Positions 34,104 to 58,464 of a stretch of 64,000 nucleotides of DNA are shown here, piece by piece. The position numbers and the translations under genes were made by a program. Each line of letters begins with the position of its first letter. Position 1 is the first letter of the stretch. A model generated the notes under the pieces. The model did not search any database. It had not been told where the DNA came from and was given only the letters and a program-made list of their open reading frames with translations. Where the stretch lies: positions 310,001-374,000 of the forward strand of contig NZ_JAPWGX010000004.1 of assembly GCF_027213965.1 (NCBI RefSeq), written 5' to 3'. The stretch is from Maritalea porphyrae (GTDB taxonomy: Bacteria > Pseudomonadota > Alphaproteobacteria > Rhizobiales > Devosiaceae).

Positions 34104-35636
34104 ATGCAGGAAATCATTGAGCAGCTAGAACACAAGCGCGGCGAAGCTCGTTTGGGCGGCGGTCAGCGCCGGATCGATACGCAGCATGGCAAGGGCAAGC
34201 TAACCGCACGTGAGCGTTTGGATGTGTTGCTCGATCCGGGCAGTTTTGAAGAATATGACATGTTTGTCACCCATCGCTGCACTGATTTTGGCATGGAAGA
34301 AAACATCATCCCCGGCGATGGGGTGGTGACCGGTTGGGGCACCATTAATGGCCGTTTGGTCTATGTGTTCTCACAAGATTTCACCGTTTTTGGCGGCTCG
34401 CTTTCTGAAACCCATGCGCAAAAGATTTGCAAAATTATGGACTTGGCCGTGCAAAACGGCGCGCCTGTGATCGGGCTGAACGATAGTGGCGGCGCGCGTA
34501 TTCAAGAAGGTGTTGCTTCGCTTGGCGGCTATGCGGATGTGTTCTTGCGCAACGTGATGGCGTCTGGCGCGGTGCCACAAATTTCAGTCATAATGGGCCC
34601 ATGTGCGGGCGGTGCCGTCTATTCACCTGCCATGACTGATTTCATCTATATGGTGAAAGACACAAGCTATATGTTTGTCACCGGTCCTGACGTGGTGAAA
34701 ACCGTTACCAACGAAACAGTGACCCAAGAAGAACTGGGCGGTGCTTCAACGCACTGTAAGATTTCTTCAGTAGCAGACGCGTCGTTTGAGAATGATGTTG
34801 AAACATTGCTCGAAGTGCGCCGCTTAGTGGACTACTTGCCCCTAAATGCAAATGAAAAGGCCCCGAAGGTTGACGTAAATGACGTCGTTAATCGCCCGGA
34901 TATGAGCCTTGATACCATCATCCCGGACAGCGCCAATAAGCCATATGATATGAAAGAGGTGATCTTAAAAATCGCAGACGAGGGTGACTTTTTGGAGCTC
35001 CAAGCCGAACATGCGGCAAACATATTGACCGGCTTTATTCGGCTAAACGGCCAAACCGTGGGGGTTGTGGCCAACCAGCCGATGGTGCTGGCCGGGTGTT
35101 TGGACATTAACTCATCCAAAAAAGCAGCGCGTTTCGTACGCTTTTGTGATGCGTTTAATATCCCCATTCTAACCCTGGTTGACGTGCCTGGCTTCCTCCC
35201 CGGGACAGCGCAGGAGTATGGTGGCATCATCAAGCATGGCGCCAAACTCCTGTTCGCCTATGCCGAAGCAACAGTGCCAAAAGTTACCGTGATTACCCGA
35301 AAAGCCTATGGCGGCGCCTATGACGTTATGGCCTCCAAGCACATCCGTGCGGACGTCAATTATGCGTGGCCAACGGCTGAAATCGCCGTGATGGGCGCAA
35401 AAGGCGCAACCGAAATTCTGTACCGCGCTGAATTGGGCGACGCCGACAAAATCGCCAAGCGCACAAAGGATTATGAAGACCGTTTCGCCAACCCATTTGT
35501 GGCAGCCGAGCGCGGCTTCATCGATGATGTGATTATGCCGCACAACACCCGCCGCCGCGTGGCGCGGGCGTTTGAAACGCTAAAGAACAAGCAACAGTCG
35601 ATGCCCAAGAAAAAGCACGACAATATTCCGTTGTAG
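34104..35636 (+). CDS. pccB: Propionyl-CoA carboxylase beta subunit
   Basis: Carboxyltransferase subunit of 510 residues that moves the carboxyl from biotin to propionyl-CoA, giving methylmalonyl-CoA. Motifs include the [20 protein letters not shown] terminus, [18 protein letters not shown] and [16 protein letters not shown] in the first half, and [20 protein letters not shown] and [10 protein letters not shown] in the second. Length is standard. It starts the propionyl-CoA pathway genes; pccA lies 1.1 kb downstream after two inserted genes and repeats. Confidence 0.95.
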
Positions 35637-35651
35637 GGAACAAAAGACCGT

Positions 35652-35689
35652 TTCCCTCCCCCTGGTGGGGAGGGACTAAGGGTGGGGGG
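35652..35689 (+). repeat. GC-rich palindromic repeat, copy A (left of DUF559 gene)
   Basis: Copy A has an eight-pair stem CCCTCCCC/GGGGAGGG around a five-base loop, followed by ACTAAGGGTGGGGGG. It runs up to the start codon of the DUF559 gene. Copy B on the other side is inverted and copy C lies alone at 58.28 kb. Confidence 0.85.
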
Positions 35690-36082
35690 ATGAGCAAGAA
35701 ACGCGCAAGAGAGTTGCGACAAAATGCAACCCCACCTGAAAAGGAAATGTGGAAAATGTTACGCACACTGCGCGCGGATGGTTTTCACTTTCGACGGCAA
35801 GTGCAGCTAGGGCCGTATTACGCAGACTTTGTCTGCCACTCGGCCAAGTTGGTGATTGAAATTGATGGCGACACGCATGGGTCGCCGGAGCAAATGGAAT
35901 TTGATCGGAAACGTGATCGGTTTTTGCAAAGGTACGGATACACAGTTTTGCGATTGACCAATGCTGAAGTGATGAAAAACATGGAAGGGGTATTTGATGT
36001 GGTTCAAAATGCGCTTGCGTCGTCCCCCCACCCCAACCCTCCCCACGATGGGGGAGGGAGCAGAATGAGGAACAACAAATGA
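35690..36082 (+). CDS. DUF559 domain protein (predicted endonuclease-like)
   Basis: Protein of 130 residues with the DUF559 fold, related to very-short-patch-repair endonucleases. Visible are RELRQNATPPEKEMWKMLR, FRRQVQLGPYYADFVC with the catalytic-type Asp, and LVIEIDGDTHG followed by DRKRDRFLQRYGYTVLRLTNAEV. The last about 20 residues (SPHPNPPHDGGG) are encoded by the flanking repeat rather than by the domain. It sits between pccB and ridA and its stop overlaps the ridA start (ATGA). The gene with its inverted repeats looks like an inserted cassette. Confidence 0.85.
   Translation: MSKKRARELRQNATPPEKEMWKMLRTLRADGFHFRRQVQLGPYYADFVCHSAKLVIEIDGDTHGSPEQMEFDRKRDRFLQRYGYTVLRLTNAEVMKNMEGVFDVVQNALASSPHPNPPHDGGGSRMRNNK
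36021..36060 (-). repeat. GC-rich palindromic repeat, copy B (right of DUF559 gene)
   Basis: Read on the minus strand, copy B is CTCCCTCCCC, a loop CATCGT, GGGGAGGG and then TTGGGGTGGGGGGACG. It is the inverted counterpart of copy A, and lies inside the 3' end of the DUF559 reading frame. Confidence 0.85.
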
Positions 36083-36477
36083 CTGATCCACTATTTCATA
36101 TGATTTCAGATGGTCCACGGCCGGTGGCGCCATTTTCTCATGCAACCGAAGCCAATGGTTGGATTTTTGTCACTGGGCAAATGCCGACTGACCCAAATGC
36201 ACCGGACGCGCCGTTGCCGGAGGGGATTGAAGCGCAAACTATCCGCGTGATGGAGAACCTCAAGATTGTTTTGGCGGGTATCGGTTTGGACCTGAGCCAC
36301 GTGATGATGGCGCGGTGTTATTTGACGGATTTTTATGGCGACTATGCGCAGTTCAACGAAACTTATCAGTCGTTTTTCCCAGCGGATCGTCGTCCCGCGC
36401 GCACGACAATTGGCGTGACGGGTTTGGCGCTTGAGGCGCTGGTGGAAATTGATTTTGTGTGTCGTCGGCCTGAGTAA
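36079..36477 (+). CDS. RidA family (YjgF/YER057c) protein
   Basis: Rid-superfamily protein of 132 residues. The archetype deaminates reactive enamine/imine intermediates released by PLP enzymes. The C-terminal motif ARTTIGVTGLALEALVEIDFVC contains the Arg and Glu expected at the active site; the N-terminal PFSHATEANGWIFVTGQMP is also typical. It may act on products unrelated to propionate; its placement within the pcc cluster may be due to insertion events. The start codon overlaps the DUF559 stop. Confidence 0.87.
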   Translation: MTDPLFHMISDGPRPVAPFSHATEANGWIFVTGQMPTDPNAPDAPLPEGIEAQTIRVMENLKIVLAGIGLDLSHVMMARCYLTDFYGDYAQFNETYQSFFPADRRPARTTIGVTGLALEALVEIDFVCRRPE

Positions 36478-36496: not shown

Positions 36497-36525
36497 CGTC
36501 ATCCTCGGGCTTGACCCGAGGATCC
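36497..36525. repeat. REP-like palindrome, unit 1
   Basis: CCTCGGGCTTGACCCGAGG with seven-pair arms, preceded by CGTCAT. It is of a type common in intergenic regions of alphaproteobacteria. Unit 2 is its inverted partner. Confidence 0.8.
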
Positions 36526-36550
36526 ATCGGGAATGGTCAGCGCTACATGG

Positions 36551-58077: not shown

Positions 58078-58464
58078 GCGAAAAAACTACTGTATCTTAC
58101 TGAACTTTTCGCCATACCGGACATTGTCGCACGAGCAACGTATGGTCACTTTGTCCGCATTGCTAACCTTCATCTTAGTAACGCAATGAGTGCTTCCATT
58201 CCAAACGTGCAAGTTGGGTCAGTTTCGTGTGACGTTTTGAGGGTGCCCGTATCATTATGTGTTTTGGCGTATCCTTCCGTCTCCCTCCCCCTGGTGGGGA
58301 GGGATTAAGGGTGGGGGGCAAACATGCCGATTGTGAATGAAGCTGGGGTAAAATAGTAATCAGCACTGGCCAAGCCATTATCAAGCTTGATAGGTATGGG
58401 GGTGGCGGGCGCGACCGGGGTGGTTTTAGACGTCCGAGCAGCCAAACCAAAAAAGGCGCGAACC
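58078..58464. other. Interval upstream of apt with a solo repeat
   Basis: Interval of 387 bases with no convincing gene. It contains repeat copy C at 58281-58319. A GCGAAAA...TTTTCGC inverted repeat just after the DUF1275 stop (about 58078-58114) may serve as its terminator. Confidence 0.5.
58281..58319 (+). repeat. GC-rich palindromic repeat, copy C (solo)
   Basis: The stem CCCTCCCC/GGGGAGGG with loop CTGGT is followed by ATTAAGGGTGGGGGG. It differs from copy A by one base in the comparable part (GATTAAG against GACTAAG) and has the same orientation. No DUF559 gene is next to it. Confidence 0.85.

Follow-up and report, generated by a model that had tools for sequence, protein, structure and literature searches.

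Inside the pcc operon of Maritalea porphyrae lies a short gene for a DUF559 nuclease with an inverted repeat at each end. Does this arrangement represent a system of the REP/RAYT kind, in which a nuclease is tied to a family of dispersed palindromes? An earlier note, made from the sequence alone, had proposed such a likeness together with several claims about the locus. Here we follow these claims through the window (the whole stretch of 64 000 nt that was analysed), the rest of the genome and the genomes of other species.

The DUF559 cassette and its repeat units

The features of the locus are listed below by position in the window.

35637-35643, plus strand: GGAACAA, left copy of a possible 7-bp target-site duplication, set against the empty site in a sister species (G003); a single, weak case
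35651-35689, plus strand: repeat unit A (64 bits), TTT followed by the palindrome CCCTCCCC-N5-GGGGAGGG and the tail ACTAAGGGTGGGGGG
35690-36082, plus strand: DUF559 nuclease gene, 130 aa (PF04480, E=2.1e-33)
36024-36060, minus strand: repeat unit B (40.5 bits), inverted and more degenerate, tail toward the gene
36069-36075, plus strand: GGAACAA, right copy of the possible 7-bp target-site duplication, set against the same empty site; a single, weak case
58280-58318, plus strand: repeat unit C (64.8 bits), a gene-less copy upstream of apt
35654-35674, 36037-36058 and 58283-58303: palindromes proper of units A, B and C

The repeat unit is 39 bp long and consists of an 8-bp stem, a 5-nt loop and a G-rich tail. 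Palindromes A, B and C had no counterpart in 100 dinucleotide shuffles of the window. The tail of unit A is directed toward the gene, and its last base directly precedes the ATG at 35690. Unit B sits within the 3′ end of the DUF559 reading frame and is translated into a Pro/Gly-rich C-terminal tail (SSPHPNPPHDGGGSR...) of low model confidence. Of 55 genes in relatives, 38 have a reading frame that enters the palindrome downstream; thus, the Pro/Gly tail of the window gene is typical. The gene is preceded by pccB (34104-35636) and followed by a ridA-like gene (36079-36477), with biotin-carboxylase and mutase genes lying beyond. The anatomical claims of the earlier note (inverted flanking repeats with a shared stem and G-rich tail, a third copy without a gene, a position inside the pcc operon and translation of the 3′ repeat) all held, but the repeats are not limited to three.

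A pattern search of the whole genome yielded 13 exact palindromes, with none in the reversed-pattern control, and a covariance model built from these exact palindromes yielded 15 units; only one full-length DUF559 gene is present. Copies at unrelated places share only ∼40 bases: TTT or TCT, the palindrome and then ATTAAGGGTGGGG. By the covariance model each of the five sister species of the genus has 3-31 units, and no full-length DUF559 gene was found in any of them. No Rfam family matching the units was found.

Four of the own-genome units (L003, L006, L009 and L014) are embedded in a longer, separate dispersed repeat of several hundred bases that has further internal repeats. The two ends of contig C55 (L013, L015) have in common an inverted stretch of ∼184 bp with the unit inside, so this repeat probably broke the assembly. 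The gap after pccB (35637-36078; L116-L121, L124) is a recurrent insertion place: in relatives it is filled by differing, unrelated small genes (L117, L118, L119, L121, L124), and in one genome (G014, L120) a DUF559 cassette from another clade occupies the same gap.

The protein matches PF04480 with 114.9 bits (cut-off 20.6) and also PF18741; a sequence match to TIGR00632 is weak and below the cut-off. The catalytic domain spans approximately residues 3-109, and the C-terminal tail comes from repeat B. Twelve residues are invariant in a 45-sequence alignment (R6, E13, W17, Q33, D42, F43, E53, D55, G56, H59, D68 and R71), and in a second alignment the catalytic residues are conserved, the E in over 90%. 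The AlphaFold2 model has a mean pLDDT of 83.8, low only at the ends, and Foldseek matched it to 3hrl, to 3r3p, which is the catalytic domain of I-Bth0305I (TM 0.78 over the target), and to Vsr, 1vsr. Judged by conservation and predicted fold, the E-D-H-D residue pattern and a PD-(D/E)XK-like core are present. The gene is under purifying selection, with dN/dS of 0.05-0.33 in ten gene pairs. EDxHD enzymes are described as metal-dependent nucleases (PMC3943268). In Caulobacter, the DUF559 protein VsrA is responsible for the SOS response in a methyltransferase mutant (PMC12907096), which supports action of the DUF559 family on DNA in the cell. PADLOC gave only a partial DpdF match, which we do not count as support for a defence role.

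Association with palindromes and matching of repeat type to protein clade

Palindromes were sorted into three stem classes: T1 (CCTTCTCCC), T2 (CCTCTCCC) and T3 (CCTCCCC). From 101 related genomes we took the DUF559 genes with their flanks and kept 93 distinct ones. A T1-T3 palindrome lies within 260 bp of the gene in 83 of the 93, and none was seen at 25 control genes (pccB, apt and Y1 transposase). About 10% of the genes in relatives have no recognisable T1-T3 palindrome, and some of these have diverged ones. Perfect hairpins (stem of at least 8 bp) occur within 200 bases upstream of 72/93 genes and downstream of 56/93, compared with 41 of the 655 control windows taken from these loci. The control windows are partly coding DNA, so the 6% background is somewhat too low for intergenic DNA. 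Among units with readable direction the tails face the gene, by 55 to 8 upstream (55/63) and by 41 to 6 downstream (41/47).

The association extends beyond these relatives. At named loci, 80 in number and drawn from at least 577 relatives, a hairpin was found at the DUF559 gene in 66 cases, versus 55 of 898 control windows (6%). These loci were found with a 9-sequence alignment, which biases them to close relatives. The hairpins mostly have C-rich arms facing G-rich arms, and the loci that carry them include Gammaproteobacteria, Nitrospirota (Nitrospira), Ignavibacteria (Ignavibacterium) and one Melainabacteria MAG. Such hairpins are also present at DUF559 genes in MAGs assigned to Syntrophia and Myxococcota, and on plasmids of Deinococcus proteolyticus and of the cyanobacterium Pseudanabaena. 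No palindrome of the C-rich kind was found at the DUF559 loci of E. coli (ycjD) and Thiothrix. The association of DUF559 genes with palindromes across relatives and other phyla is shown, and DUF559, an uncharacterised but very common domain, is tied to several palindrome families in at least six phyla. According to the earlier note, its reading would fail if the repeat were absent elsewhere in the genome or had no association with DUF559 genes in relatives; the repeat is dispersed and the association exists, so neither outcome refutes it.

Upstream of ycjD in E. coli K-12 (L221, 2408-2761) there is an inverted repeat, CTCATTCTGACAA...TTGTCAGAATGAG, which is rich in AT and does not resemble the C-rich units. 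At several other loci (L070, L073 and others) DUF559 domains lie within open frames of 500 to 2000 residues, which may be fusions or, in GC-rich DNA, spurious frames.

The stem class follows the protein tree and not the host. On the tree of 93 DUF559 domains it changes 13 times, against 44.6 changes with shuffled labels (0 of 200 shuffles gave a value as low), and in one genome with several DUF559 genes (G056) different stem classes lie beside different clades. The tail core GGRTGRGGG agrees with the stem class at its two variable positions (GGxTGyGGG): A/A in 25/25 T1 tails, G/A in 87/87 T2 tails and G/G in 100/100 T3 tails. This agreement of stem and tail is shown, as are the anatomy and the matched gene and repeat families; the 212 of 212 recognised tails include closely related copies and are not all independent. 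From the agreement we infer that a single protein reads both the arms and the tail. A G-quadruplex role of the tail was set aside: by eye the window unit fits a G4 pattern, but the T1 and T2 tails are often set apart by another small hairpin and contain fewer runs of G.

Palindrome number also follows gene number. With the three classes summed, the Spearman rho is 0.77 over the 101 genomes, and the correlation persists both inside and outside the family of the window. The median is 36 palindromes in the 54 genomes with DUF559, all of which have at least one; in the 47 genomes without it the median is 2, and 22 of them have none. Palindromes of each type are more numerous where a DUF559 gene of the matching type is present than in genomes that have other types only. 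Shuffled and reversed-pattern controls for the palindrome searches gave 0 or close to 0. The species are related, so the p-values of the copy-number tests overstate the evidence. Some gene-free genomes hold many units, for example 149 in the DUF559-free G054; together with the sister species, this indicates that units persist without a resident gene.

Mobility and empty sites

Mobility of the cassette and the existence of gene-less derivatives are shown by a family with well-defined ends. The loci of four DUF559 genes, three in G056 and one in G038, align over the whole length bounded by the inverted ends and not outside it. The outer ends are GCAGTCGGGA...TCCCGACTGC, each end being ∼75 bp long with two hairpins, and DUF559 is the only conserved reading frame between them. 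Cassettes with one set of ends occupy three unrelated sites in G056. Comparison with ten congeneric genomes revealed many copies made of the ends only, with 18 to 109 matches in seven of the genomes. In G042, 11 of the 15 places that were read are inward-facing pairs of ends without a gene, mostly ∼180-240 bp long, and the L090 cassette is missing from the corresponding place of that genome.

The earlier note had proposed comparing empty sites, and one was found for the window cassette. In the sister species G003 the cassette is absent, pccB being followed directly by GGGGGAACAACAA and ridA. This site has no palindrome, which indicates that gene and repeats arrived together or nearly so. In M. 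porphyrae the cassette has GGAACAA on both sides, the possible 7-bp duplication already listed. In the best-bounded family, none of the six elements with defined ends showed a target-site duplication; the boundary of one of them (L280) is doubtful and was probably mis-set by the mismatch search. Solo unit L008 is also absent from G003, where the spacer has another hairpin and no clean junction; for solo copy C, the upstream region in the sister species is too diverged to be read. The distribution of DUF559 is patchy and its presence differs between sister species; several DUF559 genes keep the same locus across genera.

Proposed mechanism, rival explanations and known systems

The best reading of these data, likely in our view and reached by analogy, is a REP/RAYT-like system driven by an unrelated nuclease, DUF559. 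The window locus would then be, again likely, a small mobile cassette with the gene placed between two inverted copies of a unit that its nuclease is inferred to recognise. The unit consists of a palindrome able to form a hairpin and a G-rich tail akin to one of the arms. Probably dimeric, the compact, Vsr/I-Bth0305I-like, metal-dependent DUF559 protein would bind both arms and tail in units of its own type and would nick or cut at the unit, perhaps on an extruded hairpin. Either copied or relocated, the unit, a dimer of units or the whole cassette would then enter a new site, in most cases intergenic and as a rule without target-site duplication. Solo unit C and the other dispersed copies would be non-autonomous products, as REPs and REPINs are of RAYT transposases. 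No cleavage, binding or transposition was observed; recognition, cutting and mobilisation of the unit by DUF559 itself are inferred, and so are the oligomeric state of the protein, the chemistry at the strands and the mode of insertion. It is because of the REP/RAYT analogy that spread of the unit is inferred to be driven by DUF559.

In a bolder reading, which could as well be wrong as right, these cassettes form a distinct and widespread class of minimal elements. A PD-(D/E)XK/EDxHD nuclease of ∼110 residues would be their sole enzyme; it would recognise the palindrome-plus-tail end via co-evolving contacts and, with neither HUH nor DDE chemistry, would mobilise both itself and swarms of palindromes that lack a gene. 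Many bacterial genomes hold short-palindrome families of no known source. If DUF559 does move palindromes, a ‘domain of unknown function’ would gain a function, and REP-like systems would have arisen more than once, from unrelated nucleases. It would also provide a very small sequence-specific nuclease, the target of which could be deduced from the adjacent repeats.

The main alternative, which we consider unlikely, is that DUF559 is a homing endonuclease parasitising a pre-existing palindrome family that spreads by other means. DUF559 would cut units or dimers that lack the gene, and repair templated by a copy with the gene would put it between palindromes. In favour of this explanation, the closest solved fold relatives include I-Bth0305I, units without a DUF559 gene exist in sister species and the <>GENE<> arrangements look like a gene beside dimers. 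Against it, the empty site in G003 is free of palindromes; furthermore, stem and tail class track the DUF559 tree and copy number tracks gene number, which a passive target family alone does not predict. Two observations, the lack of a palindrome at the empty site and the way in which repeat number and type co-vary with the gene, favour DUF559-driven spread over homing-like invasion, which is not excluded.

Two further explanations are very unlikely. One is that the cassette and its gene-less copies are mobilised in trans by a different transposase, DUF559 being either a passenger or an auxiliary nuclease of repair. There is no direct evidence of DUF559 mobilising anything, and many gene-less copies exist in genomes without it; however, DUF559 is the only conserved frame in the cassette, its association with palindromes recurs in several phyla and the repeat type matches the protein clade. 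The other is a domesticated host nuclease for repair or genome maintenance, acting at palindromes (e.g. in cruciform removal) and kept near its targets, with movement rare or past. The constant locus of several DUF559 genes across genera and the purifying selection agree with such a role, but multiplication inside single genomes, presence or absence between sister species and the patchy distribution do not. Chance, or ordinary transcription terminators that merely adjoin an unrelated gene, can be all but excluded: hairpins are common in intergenic DNA, but the shuffles (0), the reversed patterns (close to 0), the control genes (0/25), the conserved polarity and the agreement of stem and tail refute this explanation.

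The reading of the DUF559 cassettes as REP/RAYT-like can be set against what is known of that system. In REPtrons, short palindromes bearing an unpaired tag or tail occur singly and as inverted dimers, and matching palindromes flank the nuclease gene; several gene/repeat families may occur in one genome, and some genomes have repeats and no gene (PMC3733652). DUF559 units are likewise dispersed, solo and in inverted pairs; they flank the gene, are matched in type to the protein clade, form several gene/repeat families in one genome and occur in genomes without the gene. The likeness claimed in the earlier note is supported by the clade matching, the inverted dimers, the gene-less copies and the number correlation; that DUF559 cuts or moves the repeats is unproven. 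Unlike the Y1 HUH transposases of RAYT type, DUF559 is an EDxHD/Vsr-like nuclease of about 110-130 aa without an HUH/Y1 domain, and its units are tagged by the G-rich tail instead of GTAG or CGTC. RAYT-type Y1 transposases (PF01797) are missing in most of these palindrome-rich genomes, being absent from the M. porphyrae genome and from 90 of the 101 genomes overall; a RAYT as hidden driver was rejected on this ground. With no Y1 domain and no GTAG, the DUF559 system is an analogue of RAYT and not a member; cleavage of the unit is assumed by analogy, without biochemical data.

DUF559 shares its fold and E-D-H-D pattern with the EDxHD homing endonuclease I-Bth0305I, a multi-domain enzyme with a target near 60 bp that acts in intron homing (PMC3943268), but it is a single short domain between palindromes in intergenic DNA. 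One specific homologous site, as a homing endonuclease would have, is not what we see, since copies that share their ends have unrelated flanking sequences. The fold is also similar to Vsr (1vsr), and Caulobacter VsrA is itself a DUF559 protein; in contrast to Vsr, the window gene has no cytosine methyltransferase beside it and is associated with palindromes. As with MITEs and their parent IS, gene-less and gene-bearing copies share two inverted ends, but, unlike a classical IS or MITE, the cassette has no DDE transposase; a target-site duplication of constant length was not seen in the six bounded elements, the 7-bp repeat at the window cassette being the only possible case. These repeats may in part coincide with rhizobial intergenic mosaic elements (RIME) and cyanobacterial MITEs; a search for RIME1 gave no hits. 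The claim of the earlier note that DUF559 is undescribed in such a role stands to this extent: no paper linking DUF559, COG2852 or PF04480 to repeats was found in the open-access literature, and a description elsewhere is not excluded.

The CGTC-tagged REPs of alphaproteobacteria were reported without a dedicated transposase (PMC3733652, a 2013 survey). Like the DUF559 units, they are an alphaproteobacterial palindrome family with a one-sided tag, and they differ from them in sequence. Just past ridA, the window carries a CGTC-tagged palindrome, cgtcatcctcgggcttgacccgaggatcc (36498-36527), which resembles these REPs and is separate from the DUF559 units; more palindromes follow it to about 36670.
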